Assembly: GCA_902797995.1 (NCBI GenBank)
Contig: CADBUX010000004.1
Span: 1-52,083, forward strand
DNA from: an uncultured Erysipelotrichaceae bacterium
GTDB taxonomy: Bacteria > Bacillota_I > Bacilli_A > RF39 > UBA660
DNA: 52,083 bases
Reading direction: 5' to 3'
A program made the position numbers and the translations under genes. Under the pieces are notes generated by a model, which was given only the letters and a program-made list of their open reading frames with translations, had not been told where the DNA came from and ran no database searches. Below are positions 26,349-36,591 of the stretch, piece by piece (position 1 is the first letter of the stretch; the number at the start of each line of letters is the position of its first letter).

Positions 26349-26555
26349 CTAAATATTGACGTCCAAAACGCCAATCAGAACATCAGAATATGAAAAAGAT
26401 TTTTTTATATTATCCGAATCTATAATGAAAACATAATTATAACAACTAGTAATAATTCCTTCAAATTCTTCGATTTGATTGCGACTACCATTATACCTAA
26501 ACATGATTTTTTTATCCTTTAATGCAAGCATATCATTCCTTATCTTATCAATCAT
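26349..26555 (-). CDS. veg: Veg family protein
   Basis: A 68-residue small beta-barrel-like protein. DKIRNDMLALKDKKIMFRYN, then FEGIITSCYNYVFII, then KSFSYSDVLIGVLDV, match the Veg pattern in which VFxI and SYxDVL are the most conserved positions. Its ATG overlaps the yabG stop codon by 4 bp. In Bacillus, veg also follows yabG; there it is highly transcribed and linked to biofilm control. It is shorter than the Bacillus protein (86). Confidence 0.85.
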   Translation of the reverse strand: MIDKIRNDMLALKDKKIMFRYNGSRNQIEEFEGIITSCYNYVFIIDSDNIKKSFSYSDVLIGVLDVNI

Positions 26556-27343
26556 CTAGGATACCCCACATACATAGTACCATTAGTAATAATTCCCCCT
26601 ATTCCGTCCTTTCCATATTTAGTTCTAGAAAGTATTTTCTTTAAATCAATTGGTTCATTCTTATTAGATAAACATATTGAAGAAGCAATAATCGCTGGAT
26701 CAAGAGCATGAATATTTATTCTTCTAGGACTAGAAGCAAAATTAGAACCAGCTTTAATAAGTTCCTCATAATCAGACTGACAAGCCCCTGCAATTATAAT
26801 AAGCTTTTCATGATCTTTCTCATATTCACGAGCAGCTTGTACCGCTTTAACAAAATTTCTACTATTCTTATAATTAGAAAGTTCTTTATAATCATCATCA
26901 CGTTCATAGTAAGCATCATGACCAGTTATTACCAAAACATCAGGTTTAATTTTTTCCAAATGATCTTTTATTTTTAAATGAATCTTATCTTCAAGAATAA
27001 CAACCCCAAAACTAGCAATATTCATATCTTTATAAAACTTAATACACCTATTTAAATAATCCTTATCACTATCGATATGAAGAACCTTTCCAGGAAGATA
27101 AAAATATTGATCTCTATTAAGATCAACACTATCTTGCATCCTTTCATATAAAGTCCTATCTTCTTTAGTTATATCATCAAATTGATCATCACATTTTTTT
27201 AAATCATCCAAAGAAGCATCCGCTATAAGTCTAATATTAACCCCCTCTAAAATAGCAACGTCATTATCAATTTCTTTTATCTTAAAAACTAAATCATGAT
27301 TATGAGAAGACCTAGTTACATAATCTCCCACATTAAAAAGCAT
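26552..27343 (-). CDS. yabG: Sporulation-specific protease YabG
   Basis: A 263-residue protein matching the YabG peptidase family. It starts with an SH3-like segment (FNVGDYVTRSSHNHDLVFKI). The catalytic part includes LPGKVLHIDSDKDYLNRCIKFY, DVLVITGHDAYY with a conserved His, IIIAGACQSDYEELIKAG with a conserved Cys, and FASSPRRINIHALDPA. In Bacillus it cleaves coat proteins late in sporulation. GGAG precedes the ATG, which lies 18 bp after ksgA. Order ksgA-yabG-veg is conserved. Confidence 0.93.
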   Translation of the reverse strand: MLFNVGDYVTRSSHNHDLVFKIKEIDNDVAILEGVNIRLIADASLDDLKKCDDQFDDITKEDRTLYERMQDSVDLNRDQYFYLPGKVLHIDSDKDYLNRCIKFYKDMNIASFGVVILEDKIHLKIKDHLEKIKPDVLVITGHDAYYERDDDYKELSNYKNSRNFVKAVQAAREYEKDHEKLIIIAGACQSDYEELIKAGSNFASSPRRINIHALDPAIIASSICLSNKNEPIDLKKILSRTKYGKDGIGGIITNGTMYVGYPR

Positions 27344-27361: not shown

Positions 27362-28150
27362 TTATATGCTTAACTTATTAGAAATTTCACAAAAAATATC
27401 AATAGAAAGCTGTTCTGCTCTAACAGATAAGTCATATCCATTAGAATTAAGAACTTGTTCTATCAAAGAAAGATTATATTCTTTCAAATTGTTTCTAAGA
27501 GTCTTTCTCTTAAACCTAAAACTATCTCTAACTAGTTTATAAAACAATGTTAAGTCTTTAACAAAAGTCCGATTTTTCTTGTAAAAAGATACTACAATGC
27601 TGTCAACATTAGGTCTAGGATAAAAGCTATTTCTATTAACAATAAACTCTTTTTTTACATCATAGTTATAATTCAAATAAACAGTCAAAGAACCATAGTT
27701 CTTAGTACCTACAGAAGCACAAAATCTGTCTCCAACTTCCTTTTGAACCATTACCCTTATCATTTCAATATCTAAATCTAAATCAATTATCTTCTCAAGT
27801 ATTGGAGTAGTAATATAATATGGAAGATTAGCAATTACATATAAATTATCATAATCATATTTATTTAAATCGAAAAGAACATCTCTTTTCATAAAATCAT
27901 CAAAATATATGTCATAGTTAGAATAATCACTAAGATTATACAAAAGTCTATCCTTAACTTCTAAATCTATTTCGTAACCGATAACTTTATCAAATTTAGA
28001 ACAAAGATATTTAGTAAGCCTACCATCACCACATCCAATTTCAATAACTAAAGATTTCTCTTTAACAGGAATATCTACAATCTTTCTAACTATGTTTTCA
28101 TCAACCAAAAAGTTTTGTCCATACTTTTTTTTAAAATTAAATGGTTCCAT
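27362..28150 (-). CDS. rsmA: 16S rRNA dimethyladenosine transferase RsmA (KsgA)
   Basis: Dimethylates two adjacent adenosines near the 3' end of 16S rRNA. About 262 residues: KKYGQNFLVDENIV at the N-terminus, the SAM motif VIEIGCGDGRLTKYL, the acidic YEIDLEV, and the catalytic motif IANLPYYITTPIL. The C-terminal helical domain holds NSFYPRPNVDSIVV. The ATG at 28150 is read from GGTGAT. The next gene in transcription order is yabG; the usual upstream partner rnmV is not present, being replaced by the SipW locus. Confidence 0.96.
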   Translation of the reverse strand: MEPFNFKKKYGQNFLVDENIVRKIVDIPVKEKSLVIEIGCGDGRLTKYLCSKFDKVIGYEIDLEVKDRLLYNLSDYSNYDIYFDDFMKRDVLFDLNKYDYDNLYVIANLPYYITTPILEKIIDLDLDIEMIRVMVQKEVGDRFCASVGTKNYGSLTVYLNYNYDVKKEFIVNRNSFYPRPNVDSIVVSFYKKNRTFVKDLTLFYKLVRDSFRFKRKTLRNNLKEYNLSLIEQVLNSNGYDLSVRAEQLSIDIFCEISNKLSI

Positions 28151-28180
28151 CAAATCACCAACACCATTTTAACACCATAA

Positions 28181-28219
28181 AAAAAATAAGGCAATCATTA
28201 CACAGATTGTTCCTTATTT
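28181..28219 (-). terminator. Intrinsic terminator of the SipW locus
   Basis: Minus-strand arms AAATAAGG..CAATC and GATTG..CCTTATTT, followed by a run of T, with the stop codon of the last gene at the loop edge. A two-base bulge interrupts the stem. Confidence 0.85.
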
Positions 28220-28668
28220 TCAGAAATAGTCTTAACATATTTTTTTCTAGTTAAAAGATCGCTTAAAACAAGTAATAAATTAGCAGCACCAAGCATATAC
28301 AACATAACCTCAATTGCAGATAAATTATCTGCAAAATAAGCAGGGTTAAATTTCATTTGATATCTATAATATAGAATCATACTTTTATCAAACATAGCTC
28401 TAAAACAAATAATTATTATTATTAAAAATACAAAACAACTAACAAAATTAAACATTAAACTATTTCCAACCTTTTTACTCCTAGTAATTAAAGTTAGTAA
28501 AAAAGTAATAAGTACAAAACCAAAAGGTAAAAATACGTTAATAGCTTCTCCAAGTGACTTTTCAAGTCTTGAATAAGTCATCATTATTCCATATAAAACA
28601 AGCCCAAAAGAAACAACTAAAAGTATATATTTAAAAAATCCAAAAACTTTACTCAATATATCTTTCAT
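28198..28668 (-). CDS. Hypothetical four-helix membrane protein of the SipW locus
   Basis: A 156-residue membrane protein with four predicted helices (about 10-28, 43-61, 72-92, 118-138) and a basic cytoplasmic C-terminus (LLTRKKYVKT). I do not recognise a family. Its ATG overlaps the stop of the gene before it by one base (TAATG) and uses the GGAGGT just upstream, so the two are translationally coupled. As the last gene of the locus it may anchor or assemble the exported beta-sandwich proteins, but that is only a guess from context. Confidence 0.7.
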   Translation of the reverse strand: MKDILSKVFGFFKYILLVVSFGLVLYGIMMTYSRLEKSLGEAINVFLPFGFVLITFLLTLITRSKKVGNSLMFNFVSCFVFLIIIIICFRAMFDKSMILYYRYQMKFNPAYFADNLSAIEVMLYMLGAANLLLVLSDLLTRKKYVKTISENKEQSV

Positions 28669-29354
28669 TATCTACCTCCTCCAAACTCATTTACATACCA
28701 ATTAGCAACATCATCAAGAATTGAAGCCATCATTCTATAATTATTAACTGTTAATTTAGTTTCATTTAAAAGCTTATTATATACGCCACTTCTTGTAGTA
28801 TCTGTAGAAAAACTATAAGCGCTATTTCCAAGACCAGATTTAGCTAAATAATCAGCATTATCAATAACAATTTGTCTTTTTTGTTCAGTAATATTATACA
28901 TTTTTTGAGCTGATGTACCAAGTTTATATGATTTACTAATAACTGTTATATTATAAGGAATTCCAAAAACACATGACTTATTATATTTTTTCAAAATTTC
29001 ATCATTAGCCTTATATATATCTAAAGTATTAACTGAACTTTTACTTTCAAAAGTTGAAAAAGTTCCTTTATTTAATTGATTAATACAAGTTTGATAATAG
29101 TCATAAATAGGTTTAGCAGTAGAACCATAATTTACATTATTCACATTAACAGACTTCATCTTTTTATCTACACTTTTAAGAATATCTTTATACTCTTTAT
29201 AATCAGCACTTTCATTCATACTAATAACTTGATTATATCTAATTTCCTTATAATGATAAACATTAATAATAAACAAAAATGATGCAAATACTAAACAAAT
29301 AATCAAAACACAACTAGATAATAAATCAAAAAGTTCTCCAAAAAATTCTTTCAT
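28668..29354 (-). CDS. Hypothetical bitopic membrane protein of the SipW locus
   Basis: A 228-residue protein with a single membrane helix at about 10-34 and a mostly helical extracytoplasmic part with two Cys (in YQTCINQL and NKSCVFGI) that could form a disulfide. It ends in GGGR. No family is recognised. AGGAGG precedes the ATG. It lies 9 bp after the previous gene and overlaps the next, so it is in the same operon as the signal peptidase. The first residues FFGELFDLL and the amphipathic exterior could suit a partner of a surface fibre. Confidence 0.7.
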   Translation of the reverse strand: MKEFFGELFDLLSSCVLIICLVFASFLFIINVYHYKEIRYNQVISMNESADYKEYKDILKSVDKKMKSVNVNNVNYGSTAKPIYDYYQTCINQLNKGTFSTFESKSSVNTLDIYKANDEILKKYNKSCVFGIPYNITVISKSYKLGTSAQKMYNITEQKRQIVIDNADYLAKSGLGNSAYSFSTDTTRSGVYNKLLNETKLTVNNYRMMASILDDVANWYVNEFGGGR

Positions 29355-29363
29355 ACAATCCTC

Positions 29364-29993
29364 CTAAACTCCTATATTAATTGCAAAACTAAAATCTAAG
29401 TCCTTATCTATATTATTACCCCAAATCTTAAGCTCATATGCATCAACAGATTTACCAGATATAGTAACATTATATAAATCATTAGTTTTAGAATTACTCA
29501 AACTACCATTTTTTACAACTTGTTGATTTTTTAATAACATATAGCCAATTTTACTTTGATCAATACTATCTAAACCATAATTAGGGTTTTCCAACTCAAC
29601 TGAATATTTAAGATCTACATCATTTTTGTTTTCAACATTAAAATGATAAGTAAAAGAATTACCAGAATTATTATAATTAGCAAAAGACTTAATAGTTCCA
29701 CCATAAGCTTTGTTTGAATGTATTACAGTTAATTTATATTCGTTATGAAATACTCCAATTGGACGACCAGTTAACTCTTTATCAAAAACAACAAGACCAA
29801 GTATAGCTGCAAGTAAAGAAGTAAGAATCAAAAATATCGCCAGTCCTATTAAAAACGGAGCCCCAAAAAACTTTCTAACATAAATATGGTCATCAACCCC
29901 AAGTTTACTATGTAATTCTTCATCAGCAACTTCTTCTTTAAAAATTAATTCTTCAGTATTAGATACATAGTCATCATTATTATTCTGATTCAT
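29364..29993 (-). CDS. Membrane-anchored beta-sandwich protein related to the TasA-like proteins
   Basis: About 209 residues. An acidic cytoplasmic tail (about 1-42) precedes one membrane helix (about 49-72). A beta-rich exterior domain ends YELKIWGNNIDKDLDFSFAI, which parallels the C-terminal strands of the other exported proteins here (YTLRLWIDK at 32295-32948, FRMWYSYD at 30630-31409). It lacks a SipW-type cleavage motif, so it may remain anchored. The start overlaps the end of the signal peptidase gene; GAGGTGG favours the ATG at 29993 over those at 29996 or the TTG at 29999. Confidence 0.7.
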   Translation of the reverse strand: MNQNNNDDYVSNTEELIFKEEVADEELHSKLGVDDHIYVRKFFGAPFLIGLAIFLILTSLLAAILGLVVFDKELTGRPIGVFHNEYKLTVIHSNKAYGGTIKSFANYNNSGNSFTYHFNVENKNDVDLKYSVELENPNYGLDSIDQSKIGYMLLKNQQVVKNGSLSNSKTNDLYNVTISGKSVDAYELKIWGNNIDKDLDFSFAINIGV

Positions 29994-30609
29994 CATCAAC
30001 CACCTCTTTTAACTTCTTTTTAGCCTCAAGTGCTCTTTCACTTTCTAATTCTTTGTTTTTGCTTTTTTTACCAACAGCCCTAAATAGTTTCAATATATCA
30101 CTAATAATAATTCCTAAAGCAGGTATAATTATAGCAACAATCCAACCAGTTTTACTAACCAAAAATTGTTGAATATAACCAGCCTTTGGTATTTTAAAAA
30201 TAACCTTTCCTAAAACATAATCGCTTTTAATAACTTCACTATCTGCAGTATTATTGTTATCACCTTTTGTTTGATATGAATATTCACCATTAACATTGTA
30301 TACCTCTTTTACTCTATGGGTAATAGTAATACCACCGTTATTATTAGAAACAAAAGTTATAACATCACCCTTGTTATATATATTGTTATCTTCTTTATAT
30401 GTTACAACAACATCTCCAGCTTTAATCGTAGGATACATACTTTGAGTAAGTATTGTATAAAAATTTGTTCTAACTTCACCTAAACGATCATTACCTGCCA
30501 AAAACCTAACCCTAACAATATAAATGACAATTATTGCAATTAAAAGTACTAAAATAGTAAATATAGCGGACGAAATAATTTTAAAAATTCTATTAATTAC
30601 ACTTTTCAC
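29980..30609 (-). CDS. sipW: Signal peptidase I, SipW type (S26B)
   Basis: A membrane peptidase of ~209 residues with two helices (about 10-30 and 150-172). The catalytic Ser is in LTQSMYPTIKAGDVV. The general base is His in ITITHRVKEV rather than the Lys of ordinary type I peptidases; this Ser/His pair defines the SipW (ER-like) class. The substrate-loop signature QTKGDNNNTAD is present. SipW-class enzymes mature TasA-type fibre proteins, and such candidates lie immediately upstream. The start is probably the GTG at 30609, spaced from GAAAGGG; a TTG at 30627 is the alternative. A basic cytoplasmic tail follows the second helix. Confidence 0.9.
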   Translation of the reverse strand: MKSVINRIFKIISSAIFTILVLLIAIIVIYIVRVRFLAGNDRLGEVRTNFYTILTQSMYPTIKAGDVVVTYKEDNNIYNKGDVITFVSNNNGGITITHRVKEVYNVNGEYSYQTKGDNNNTADSEVIKSDYVLGKVIFKIPKAGYIQQFLVSKTGWIVAIIIPALGIIISDILKLFRAVGKKSKNKELESERALEAKKKLKEVVDDESE

Positions 30610-30629
30610 ACTAACCAGCCCTTTCAAAA

Positions 30630-31409
30630 TTATTCGTAATAAGCGTCTACTGCAACTTTACATCCAAATTGTTTTGATTCCTTATAAACATTCGCATCAT
30701 AAGAATACCACATTCTAAAAACGTAATCACTAGTTGAACTACTAGTTAAAGTTTTTCTATAAATTACCTTTCCACCAGCACGATATTTACTATTAGGTAA
30801 ATCACTATAATTATTAACTATATTCTTATTTATAGAAACATCTTTACCATCTTCGGTTAAATAAACTCTAATATCTTTTTCATCAATAGTATTACCTTCT
30901 ATAGGAATAAGTGATATTTCATAGACAATTTTGCCCTTTTTAATATTTTTCATAGTAGCAGAAATATTAAAATCAAAATATTCTTTATCCCCAGTAAGTT
31001 TCATACCAACTTCATCACGAGTAGGAAGTACATTAGTCATATAAATATTATTAGATTTCTCACTAAAAGAAAAAAGTATTGTACCTGCTTCTACTTGCTT
31101 AGTAGGAGTCTTTCTTTTAGATGGAGTATAGCCATTAGAAGGAGTAGGACTATTTTCCTCCTTTTTCTTTTTAGTTTGATCAACAACAATATCAGTACCA
31201 ACATCAATAACATTAGTACTATCACCATTATAATAAGTATTAAATATAGCAAAAGATAAAGATGCAACTAAAAATATTAAACAAATAAGAAAAACTAACA
31301 TTAAAAGGAACAACCTATGATCATCCTCTTCAACAGTTAAGATCTCATCAGCAACCTGATCTGCAACATCTTGTTCATATAAATCAAATCTTTTATCATC
31401 ATTATTCAT
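30630..31409 (-). CDS. TasA/camelysin-like exported protein with cytoplasmic extension
   Basis: About 259 residues. A ~30-residue acidic N-terminal tail precedes a hydrophobic segment that ends SLSFAIFNTYYNG, which has the shape of a SipW-cognate signal. A Thr/Lys/Pro-rich linker (with YTPSKRKTPTKQ) follows, then a beta-sandwich domain with FDFNISATM, YEISLIPI and VFRMWYSYD, parallel to the downstream-of-signal domain at 32295-32948. It lies 21 bp before the signal peptidase gene. The ATG at 31409 follows AGGTG. Likely a substrate or anchored partner of the fibre. Confidence 0.75.
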   Translation of the reverse strand: MNNDDKRFDLYEQDVADQVADEILTVEEDDHRLFLLMLVFLICLIFLVASLSFAIFNTYYNGDSTNVIDVGTDIVVDQTKKKKEENSPTPSNGYTPSKRKTPTKQVEAGTILFSFSEKSNNIYMTNVLPTRDEVGMKLTGDKEYFDFNISATMKNIKKGKIVYEISLIPIEGNTIDEKDIRVYLTEDGKDVSINKNIVNNYSDLPNSKYRAGGKVIYRKTLTSSSTSDYVFRMWYSYDANVYKESKQFGCKVAVDAYYE

Positions 31410-31426
31410 ATTCACACCTACTATTC

Positions 31427-31450
31427 TAGTATACCTATACTACTATAGTA
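31427..31450. promoter_or_regulatory. Candidate operator: adjacent palindromes upstream of the sipW operon
   Basis: TAGTATA-CC-TATACTA (31427-31442) is a perfect inverted repeat, directly followed by the perfect palindrome TACTATAGTA (31441-31450). They lie between the tandem terminators and the first gene of the sipW operon, where a promoter is required. No factor is known. Confidence 0.35.
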
Positions 31451-31470
31451 CCACAAAAAAATTAAATTTA

Positions 31471-31534
31471 AAAGAAAAATATTGCAATATGCAATATTAT
31501 TTTCAAAAAAAAGACCATTGATTAACAATAGTCT
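31471..31534 (-). terminator. Tandem intrinsic terminators after the second TasA-like gene
   Basis: Two minus-strand hairpins in series. The first is AGACTATTG-TTAAT-CAATGGTCT with a T run (31505-31534). The second is AATATTGCA-TAT-TGCAATATT followed by TTTCTTTT (31471-31498). They separate the abundant-substrate genes from the signal peptidase operon. Confidence 0.8.
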
Positions 31535-31540
31535 ATTTTA

Positions 31541-32245
31541 TTAAGCTTGTGCAGCTACAACTTTAACTTTAAAGCTATATGTTTCAGAAGCTGAAGTTTT
31601 CTTATGTTGAGCACTACCATCTTGTTGTGGAATAGTTAAATTTCCACTATTTTCAGTATCTGAATTAGCAGCATCAGTAGGTAAATCATAAGTATCTGCT
31701 AAATAAGCTTTTACTTTAAATGTATCAGTTAAATGACCATTATTTAAAGTACCATTAGTTACATAGTGATCTTGAATAAGATTTAAATCACCATGATCAC
31801 TAGCAAAACTTGAAATAAGAACACCACCAGTAGCAGATCCTTTTACATAAGTGCTATTTTTTTGAATAGCTACCTTAACATAATTATCACCTATAGTTGC
31901 ACCAGTAGTAGGTGTAGTAGTTATATCACTAAGACCAACTTCATAGTTAACTGACATTGTAGTATTTGTGCCAAAATCACCTTCAACTGTAAATGTTGTT
32001 TCATTATTAGTATCAGCCATACCAGTAGCATCATCTTCAGGATATTGGTTAGTAATTTCAATATTATTATGTTCAGTATTATCATCAAAAGCAACTGAAA
32101 CCGTACCAGTTTTTAAAACATTTTCTTTAGTACCAGTACCAGTAAATGTAAACATTGCAAATGATACACCAACAACTGCAATAACTAATACAAGTATTCC
32201 AATAATTGATAGAATTAAAGTCTTCTTATTATTATTGTTTTCCAT
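31541..32245 (-). CDS. TasA/camelysin-like exported protein
   Basis: A 234-residue protein. The N-terminus MENNNNKKTLIL leads into a hydrophobic segment (about 8-28) ending GVSFAMFTFTGTGT, a SipW-cognate type signal with likely cleavage after FA. The mature part starts VLKTGTVSVAFDD, typical of TasA/CalY proteins, and continues as a Thr-rich beta-sandwich ending FKVKVVAAQA. It is low in Lys-rich or Cys content and contains no Cys. AAAGGAG precedes the ATG. It follows its paralogue by 49 bp, and its tandem terminators suggest high expression of these two genes relative to the processing genes. Confidence 0.82.
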   Translation of the reverse strand: MENNNNKKTLILSIIGILVLVIAVVGVSFAMFTFTGTGTKENVLKTGTVSVAFDDNTEHNNIEITNQYPEDDATGMADTNNETTFTVEGDFGTNTTMSVNYEVGLSDITTTPTTGATIGDNYVKVAIQKNSTYVKGSATGGVLISSFASDHGDLNLIQDHYVTNGTLNNGHLTDTFKVKAYLADTYDLPTDAANSDTENSGNLTIPQQDGSAQHKKTSASETYSFKVKVVAAQA

Positions 32246-32294
32246 ATATATCTCCTTTCGTTATATTTAAATTAATATTATTCCAATCACAATA

Positions 32295-32948
32295 CTATGG
32301 TTGTGTAGTAATTGGATCAACATGTGAATCGACATTAACTTTTGCATGATATTCTTTGCCAGTTACATCATCATAATCAACAGCTTTATCAATCCACAAT
32401 CTTAAAGTATAATTAGTCGTTTTAGTAGCTGTATCTGAAGCGGTAAATACATCTGACTCAGCATGAAGCAGTTTAGCGCCACTATGCATAGAAGCACTTC
32501 CTAAAGCGCTAATCAAAGTACCATTTTGACCGGTTTCACTAACAAAAGTTCCTTCTTTTTCCAAATATGCCTTTACTTGATTATCGGCCATAGAAACATA
32601 GTAACCTTCTTGCCCTTCAGCAACAGTTGTTTCAACTTTAGTCAAACTAATTTGATATGGTACAGTAAGAGCATTATCAGCTTTAGTTGAAACTGTAAAA
32701 TCAAACCTACCACGATTAGTTTGAGCTTTACCATCAGTATCTGCCATTGGCATAGCATCTTCAACTAAAATAGCATTACTTGGTTCGTTATAACTTACCA
32801 TAACTGTACCAGTTGTAACAGTATTAGCTTCAGAAGTAAACACAGTTGAATATGCTGCAAATGAAATACCAATTACTGCTACTACTAAAATAGCAACACC
32901 TAAAACTGAAAGAAGCACTTTCTTTTGACTATTTTCCTTCATTTCCAT
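32295..32948 (-). CDS. TasA/camelysin-like exported protein
   Basis: A 217-residue paralogue of the next gene. The signal segment (about 9-28) ends IGISFAAYSTVFTS, then VTTGTVMVSYNEPS begins the mature domain in the same register as VLKTGTVSVAF in the neighbour. A beta-sandwich follows with FDFTVSTK, YQISLTKVE and YTLRLWIDK, ending in VNVDSHVDP. TasA-type proteins form extracellular fibres or proteases-like camelysin; I see no HExxH motif, so a structural role is more likely. AAGGAGG precedes the ATG. It is the first gene of the locus. Confidence 0.82.
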   Translation of the reverse strand: MEMKENSQKKVLLSVLGVAILVVAVIGISFAAYSTVFTSEANTVTTGTVMVSYNEPSNAILVEDAMPMADTDGKAQTNRGRFDFTVSTKADNALTVPYQISLTKVETTVAEGQEGYYVSMADNQVKAYLEKEGTFVSETGQNGTLISALGSASMHSGAKLLHAESDVFTASDTATKTTNYTLRLWIDKAVDYDDVTGKEYHAKVNVDSHVDPITTQP

Positions 32949-33127: not shown

Positions 33128-33877
33128 TTATCTTATATTAAGTCTAAATAAATTTATAACATTATTACTTGTTATATTAGCAACCTCATCAAAGCTTAAA
33201 CCAAGTAAATCAGAAATAAACTCACACACAAGTTTTACATTACCAGGTTCATTTTTTTCTCCCCTTATAGGCGACAAATAAGGGGAATCTGTTTCAAAAA
33301 CAACTCTACCAAGTCCTATTTCCTTTATAACATCCTTTAACTTACTGTTTTTAAAAGTAACAACACCTCCAATACCCAAATAATATCCTAAATCAAGATA
33401 CTGTTTAGCAACCTCTAAAGATCCAGAAAAACAATGAATGACTCCAGAGAGATTATACTCTCTTAATATATTATATGTATCTAAAAAGGCATCTCTTGTA
33501 TGAATAACTACAGGTTTGTTATATTTTTTAGCAAGATCAAGTTGTCTTCTAAAAAGTTCCTTTTGCTCTTCCATATCTTCTTTTCCATAATGATAATCAA
33601 GTCCTATTTCACCTACTGCTACTACTCTATCATTCATTAAGCATTTTTCCAAAAAATTGTAATCATCTTCCGTAACACTAGAAGCCATACTAGGATGATA
33701 ACCAGCACTTAAAAAGATATTATCATATTTATCTAATAGTTTGATATTAAGTTTATTATCATCTCTTTCAGAGCCACTGACAATTAAATACTTAACGTCA
33801 TTTTCTTTTGCCTTTTCTATGATTTCATCTATATTATAATCTTCATTAACTAAATGACAATGCGAATCAATTAACAT
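33128..33877 (-). CDS. tatD: TatD family metal-dependent hydrolase/DNase
   Basis: A 249-residue TIM-barrel amidohydrolase. Metal ligands are visible in LIDSHCHL at the N-terminus, AVGEIGLDYHYG, VIHTRDAF, GVIHCFSG and VFETDSPYLSP. This matches YabD, the Bacillus TatD next to metG; the family degrades DNA or RNA 3' to 5' in known cases. The ATG at 33877 follows GGGTGAT. It is separated from metG by a small membrane ORF. GLGRVVFETDSPYL is the diagnostic C-terminal block. Confidence 0.94.
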   Translation of the reverse strand: MLIDSHCHLVNEDYNIDEIIEKAKENDVKYLIVSGSERDDNKLNIKLLDKYDNIFLSAGYHPSMASSVTEDDYNFLEKCLMNDRVVAVGEIGLDYHYGKEDMEEQKELFRRQLDLAKKYNKPVVIHTRDAFLDTYNILREYNLSGVIHCFSGSLEVAKQYLDLGYYLGIGGVVTFKNSKLKDVIKEIGLGRVVFETDSPYLSPIRGEKNEPGNVKLVCEFISDLLGLSFDEVANITSNNVINLFRLNIR

Positions 33878-33903
33878 AAAATCACCCACTACAATTATAT
33901 CAT

Positions 33904-35930: not shown

Positions 35931-35959
35931 ATATTACCACAAAATTAAAAACTATTCAA
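35931..35959 (-). promoter_or_regulatory. Promoter of the metG T-box transcript
   Basis: TTGAAT (35954-35959) and TAATAT (35931-35936) with a 17-base spacer, directly ahead of stem I; the -35 lies over the last codons of spoVT. Confidence 0.6.
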
Positions 35960-36479
35960 TATATTTTCCTAAAAATTTTGAAGCAATCATTCCAGTCTTT
36001 ATAATAAAATCATCAATTTCTTCATCTAAAGACATAATTATAACAGCACCAACAGCATCACCACCGGTGATAATCGGAGCAATAATATAGCTCGCATTTG
36101 TACTTAATCCATCAACAATAGAAATAATCTTTTTTTCTTTAGAAGAAACAACAATTCTACTTTCAATAAGCTTTTCTAGTTCAGAAGAAATACCCTTATC
36201 AAGATATTTTCTTCTTAAATCACCAGAAACTGCTACCACTTTATCTCTATCAACGATAATTACATTATTCCCAATTTCAGAATATATAGAATCAGTATAT
36301 GTCTTATAAAAGTTTTGTAGTCCTTCCAAAGGTGAGTATTTTTTAAGAACGATATTATCACTACTTAAAAATATTTCAAGCGATTCCCCATCTTTTATTC
36401 TAAGTGTTTTTCTTATCTCTTTAGGAATCACTATTCTTCCTAAATCATCTATTCTTCTAACAACCCCAGTATTTTTCAT
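35952..36479 (-). CDS. spoVT: SpoVT, AbrB-family sporulation transcription regulator
   Basis: A 175-residue protein, close to the Bacillus length of 178. Residues 1-50 form an AbrB swapped-hairpin DNA-binding domain (TGVVRRIDDLGRIVIPKEIR, then LRIKDGESLEIF). Residues 55-175 form a GAF-like domain including VIIVDRDKVVAVSGD and APIITGGDAVGAVI. SpoVT modulates SigG genes in the forespore. It follows mfd, exactly as in Bacillus. The ATG at 36479 has a weak site (GTGAGG). An inverted repeat upstream may be its own operator. Confidence 0.93.
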   Translation of the reverse strand: MKNTGVVRRIDDLGRIVIPKEIRKTLRIKDGESLEIFLSSDNIVLKKYSPLEGLQNFYKTYTDSIYSEIGNNVIIVDRDKVVAVSGDLRRKYLDKGISSELEKLIESRIVVSSKEKKIISIVDGLSTNASYIIAPIITGGDAVGAVIIMSLDEEIDDFIIKTGMIASKFLGKYIE

Positions 36480-36591
36480 TTCAAGCCTCACTTTCACTAT
36501 AATTATTTTTTGCAAAATAAACAAAATTATTCTCTATTTTTAACCAATAAATTATATCTCTATTATAATATCTATACTGCCTTATTTTATC

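Follow-up and report, generated by a model that had tools for sequence, protein, structure and literature searches.

A SipW-type signal peptidase locus in a tiny-genome gut bacterium most likely builds surface protein threads

A cluster of seven genes in the tiny genome of an uncultured gut bacterium most likely builds protein threads on the cell surface. We regard it as probable that the locus is a SipW-dependent donor-strand surface filament system of the TasA/camelysin type with its own membrane base. The core machinery is of a known kind. New are a family-restricted pair of membrane proteins, an ordered pair of subunit genes (A-B) and the wide use of the subunit domain. The ordered A-B pairs and the use of this N-terminal domain at the head of larger surface proteins throughout the genome go beyond the first-pass annotation of this DNA.

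The window, i.e. the whole stretch of DNA analysed, comprises bases 1-52083 of contig C4 of a 1.07 Mb assembly (G000), which is 96% complete and whose close relatives are assemblies of uncultured gut Bacilli. As annotated before, seven intact open reading frames were found between tatD (33128-33889) and ksgA (27362-28153), all of them on the minus strand. Sandwich protein A (32295-32948, 217 aa) has a SipW-type signal ending in SFA before AYSTVF, and its putative partner B (31541-32245, 234 aa) one ending in SFA before MFTF; both are predicted to be released subunits. A third sandwich protein (30630-31415, 261 aa) carries an acidic cytoplasmic N-terminal tail and the SFA motif. It is followed by a SipW-type (archaeal/ER-type Ser/His) signal peptidase (29980-30627, 215 aa) and by a membrane-anchored sandwich protein without cleavage or donor motif (29364-29999, 211 aa). 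The last two genes, overlapping by 1 nt, encode a bitopic protein with an N-terminal transmembrane helix, an exterior helical bundle and two Cys (28668-29354, 228 aa) and a four-helix membrane protein (28198-28668, 156 aa). These genes had been thought to replace the usual rnmV region. They do occupy this site, but RNase M5 is not merely displaced: its C-terminal domain (PF13331) was not found anywhere in the assembly. In the relatives a 3D-domain gene (YabE-like, by reading) usually comes after tatD (e.g. L096:2373-2993), in many of them between tatD and the sandwich genes; the window lacks it. At 26349-27343 and 35952-36524, YabG, Veg-like and SpoVT-like genes are retained.

Judged by profile comparison, the four sandwich proteins are homologous, as the first-pass annotation had proposed. 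A was linked to B with E 3e-30 and to the third protein with E 4e-32; the anchored protein was linked to the third with E 2.5e-8 and to A with E 3.7e-7, the latter value improving to 2e-16 with more sequences. Unrelated proteins of the locus scored much weaker. In A, B and the third protein the signal ends with S-F-A; an aromatic residue and N-x-hydrophobic-x-x-G come next. Homologues were scored for this combination of SFA cleavage site, aromatic residue/donor strand and N-x-hydrophobic-x-x-G. It was kept in 46 of 51 A-type, 7 of 8 B-type and 5 of 9 proteins of the third kind, in 27 of 33 Bacillus TasA/CalY proteins and in none of the 24 anchored-type homologues. Thus, the contrast between released and anchored versions, already read from the window, is real and conserved. 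In the third protein a linker, of variable length within the genus, separates the donor-like N-terminal segment from the protein's own sandwich.

The likeness to TasA and camelysin claimed in the first-pass annotation held in part. With the Pfam gathering score of PF12389 (TasA/camelysin) no match was obtained for A, B, the third or the anchored protein, but a remote profile link was indicated and the common motif was found. The comparison set consisted of Bacillus proteins adjoining sipW, two of which were tested and match PF12389 strongly. Its hhalign probability was 19% with a narrow A set and 75.9% with a broader one (E 2.3e-5, 184 columns, whole length); the reversed control gave 0.7%. 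This link falls short of the usual certainty. One member matched the TasA model NF046066 with E 0.0012. The structural check suggested at that time was run on A. The AlphaFold model (pLDDT 75, pTM 0.67) consists of an N-terminal helix and a beta-rich domain; the segment behind the cleavage site has low confidence. Among the best 50 Foldseek matches the PapG pilin domain ranked first, and FimG, FimF, CS20 and the Saci_0406 thread were included. No Foldseek match of A passed E 0.001; these donor-strand pilins and the thread were individually non-significant, TM-scores normalised to A being about 0.2-0.3, and TasA itself was absent from the best 50. Searches of PDB sequences with the sandwich profiles gave chance matches only. 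From the remote profile link, the lack of a Pfam match and the non-significant fold matches we conclude that A likely works like TasA and that its membership in TasA/camelysin is likely but remote. The fold was modelled for A, and B, the third and the anchored protein are predicted to share it from their profile homology.

The assignment of the Ser/His peptidase to the SipW type was confirmed. The protein scored 108.3 bits with TIGR02228 (archaeal/ER-type signal peptidase; cut-off 51.85), SEC11A/C were its closest solved structures (E 2e-10), and the catalytic residues Ser63 and His104 are invariant in the alignment. With NF046067, the equivalog model of Bacillus SipW, it reached 108.7 bits, below the curated cut-off of 190. 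By these scores it is of the same kind as Bacillus SipW and not the Bacillus equivalog. The source genome holds a second SipW-type peptidase of 395 aa with several membrane helices (G000 C6:5000-10000; L160:296-3413), flanked on one side by a DUF5305 protein and on the other by a 239-aa protein whose signal is similar; this group is a separate second system.

Terminators had been annotated after both A and B. The search for intrinsic terminators detected a single one, after gene B (31534-31512 on the minus strand, 9-bp stem, T run), but none after gene A. Hence A-B looks co-transcribed, and A-B and the following five genes are probably two transcription units. Promoter matches at the locus showed no excess over the shuffled expectation.

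The six proteins of the locus other than the peptidase had no match at curated cut-offs in Pfam, NCBIfam, PHROGs or PDB, and the two membrane families downstream were as unfamiliar as the first-pass annotation had stated. The AlphaFold model of the bitopic protein (pLDDT 78) shows a single membrane helix, an exterior helical bundle and a cytoplasmic N-terminal part of a few residues. A fold search gave helical bundles only, e.g. vinculin tail at E 0.06 or worse, which is not significant. Cys90 and Cys128 are both kept in 25 homologues and both lost in 2, never one alone; this joint behaviour points to a likely disulfide. Homology between the bitopic and the four-helix protein was rejected (hhalign between their profiles 28%).

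Of 193 genomes examined from the family, 165 have sipW-type genes, and the bitopic and four-helix genes were found in 22 each. Both occur together in the same 21 genomes, always adjacent, and in all 20 genomes where the contig allows this to be judged, sipW lies directly upstream of the pair. The co-occurrence with sipW outside the window, on which the earlier proposal depended, was thus found. Among 395 genomes drawn from the class, no bitopic gene was detected outside this bacterium's family. A weak bitopic match in G214 was set aside, as neither sipW nor the partner is nearby, as was a four-helix match in G158 with stop codons and no ORF context. The locus of G126 is split over two contigs. 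Beside sipW the anchored protein is missing in G069, G202 and G450; G069 and G202 have another sandwich protein, without the S-F-A motif and with a long linker. Furthermore, most genomes that encode SipW sandwich proteins have neither the bitopic nor the four-helix gene. Therefore, neither the anchored protein nor the pair is needed for the basic system.

Neighbouring A and B genes were found as 17 pairs in seven assemblies, in the order A then B without exception. G004 has three tandem pairs at one site and G031 five pairs; unpaired copies of A or B are few. Beyond the window the source genome encodes eight further proteins with the sandwich domain, which in four of them forms the N-terminal part of a larger protein (374 to at least 1100 residues). 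Up to 42 domain matches were counted in the relatives, many in ORFs of 500-2100 residues. With a query that favours relatives of the window, at least six matches were found in 21 of 21 genomes bearing the bitopic/four-helix pair versus 32 of 172 without it (Fisher p 5e-14, ignoring shared ancestry).

One protein of the source genome (L157:2043-5342, G000 C13), of at least 1100 aa and cut by the contig end, has an N-terminal SipW signal and sandwich and, further on, repeats that include a Listeria-Bacteroides repeat. Two SipW-sandwich proteins that differ in other respects (L155:1730-2854 and L159:2048-3244) have a common Cys-containing C-terminal domain (..CFIxNxTLYCLKG..GIxCSxSG..) without Pfam match. 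In G031 (L098:5429-8034, C6; also L007) a 681-aa recombinase-like ORF directly precedes a B gene whose N-terminus is missing, at a site with no A gene; apparently a mobile element has inserted into an A-B pair. A transposase-like ORF lies on the opposite strand between duplicated sandwich genes in G008 (L101:8511-9665, C2).

For the proposed filament system the following course can be envisaged. A and B would be synthesised with a membrane-spanning signal, and SipW would cut after S-F-A. The N-terminal strand freed in this way would fill the open place in a neighbour's incomplete beta-sandwich (donor-strand exchange), and A and B would co-polymerise into a thread. The third protein, with the same strand and then a linker, may serve as the first or last piece of the thread, like TapA, and the anchored protein would remain in the membrane and hold the base. 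This would amount to a pilot or anchor plus fibre arrangement. Together with SipW, the bitopic and four-helix proteins may form a membrane site at which cleaved subunits are kept or passed on to the growing thread. The larger proteins with the same N-terminal domain could travel by this mechanism too and serve as tips or side branches. We infer these steps and the role of each membrane protein by analogy with studied systems: TasA, once cleaved by SipW, assembles into threads by donor-strand exchange (PMC9674648), TapA is the donor of the first strand (PMC10151520), TasA and CalY of B. cereus co-assemble into heterofilaments (PMC13082335), and BsaA of C. perfringens requires SipW for export and polymerisation into filaments (PMC7395162).

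No relevant literature on this locus in uncultured gut Bacilli was found. As in tapA-sipW-tasA of Bacillus subtilis, a SipW-type peptidase adjoins sandwich proteins whose signal and donor-strand region are the same, and a further protein, which has a linker behind a donor-like N-terminus, may play the part of TapA. In contrast to B. subtilis, there are two different kinds of released subunit, a relative that is anchored and uncleaved, and two extra membrane proteins; the Pfam TasA/camelysin match is lacking and the chromosomal site is another. The Bacillus cereus sipW-tasA/calY/capP genes also comprise two paralogous released subunits, for which co-assembly was shown (PMC13082335), whereas the present locus has a repeated ordered A-B gene pair and membrane base genes, and no CapP gene was recognised. 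With sipW-bsaABCRSD of Clostridium perfringens it shares a SipW-dependent secreted protein, polymerising in that species, and accessory exported proteins (PMC7395162), but two-component genes are missing here and the accessory genes encode membrane proteins from other families. Chaperone-usher pili and the archaeal Saci_0406 thread provided subunits among the best, non-significant fold matches of A. Unlike in chaperone-usher pili, there is no chaperone, usher or outer membrane; the resemblance concerns the working principle and not membership.

Other explanations were considered for the bitopic and four-helix genes. They could simply travel with the conserved tatD-ksgA neighbourhood and have nothing to do with SipW, and the gene order up to ksgA is indeed fixed in most genomes. 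This is contradicted by G118, G129 and G498, in which ksgA lies on another contig and the pair is still found with sipW and the anchored protein. Neighbourhood inertia does not explain the linkage, and we consider this explanation highly improbable. In G118, where the module is off the ksgA site, three small WXG-like ORFs come after the four-helix gene (L127:173-1116, C31). It is unlikely, though deserving more weight, that the two proteins are a sensor or quality-control pair, the exterior bundle monitoring SipW substrates that are uncut or have stalled, with the four-helix protein relaying the signal or acting on it. A pair strictly linked to sipW yet dispensable for it, a bitopic exterior bundle with a likely disulfide, and the lack of resemblance of either protein to an enzyme or a pilin would agree with such a function. 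Against it, neither protein has a cytoplasmic signalling domain, and the N-terminal cytoplasmic part of the bitopic protein is just a few residues long.

The threads themselves may also be doubted. The SipW substrates could be separate secreted or cell-associated proteins which never form threads; the filament is a prediction here, the fold matches of A are weak, many homologues carry large C-terminal domains, and camelysin was originally described as a protease. We judge this rather unlikely, as cleavage site and donor-strand motif lie at the same place as in TasA, the A-B pairs are ordered and occur in repeated copies, and the SipW-linked proteins studied in Bacillus and Clostridium do polymerise (PMC9674648, PMC7395162, PMC13082335). 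A spore-surface appendage, not belonging to growing cells, might be supposed from the YabG and SpoVG/SpoVT-like genes nearby and from TasA, which was first characterised as spore coat-associated (PMC9674648). But SpoIVA was not found in the 96% complete assembly, and the neighbouring genes follow an old gene order; there is very little chance that this is the explanation.

For the locus as a whole a wider reading is conceivable, and we put it forward tentatively: a donor-strand surface display in a monoderm bacterium, in which two-subunit A-B threads and a large, genome-wide, adhesin-like repertoire are assembled by a single SipW with a dedicated membrane base, the common N-terminal sandwich being a plug-in docking domain. 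If true, it would be for a Gram-positive bacterium what the chaperone-usher systems are for Gram-negatives. Little is known about the initiation, anchoring and termination of TasA-type threads at the membrane, and the two membrane families tied to SipW are concrete candidates for the site where this happens. The repeated A-B pairs, and the N-terminal domain which larger proteins have in common, point to the SipW-filament system as a main way in which uncultured gut Bacilli with small genomes build their cell surface, and not as a minor biofilm accessory.
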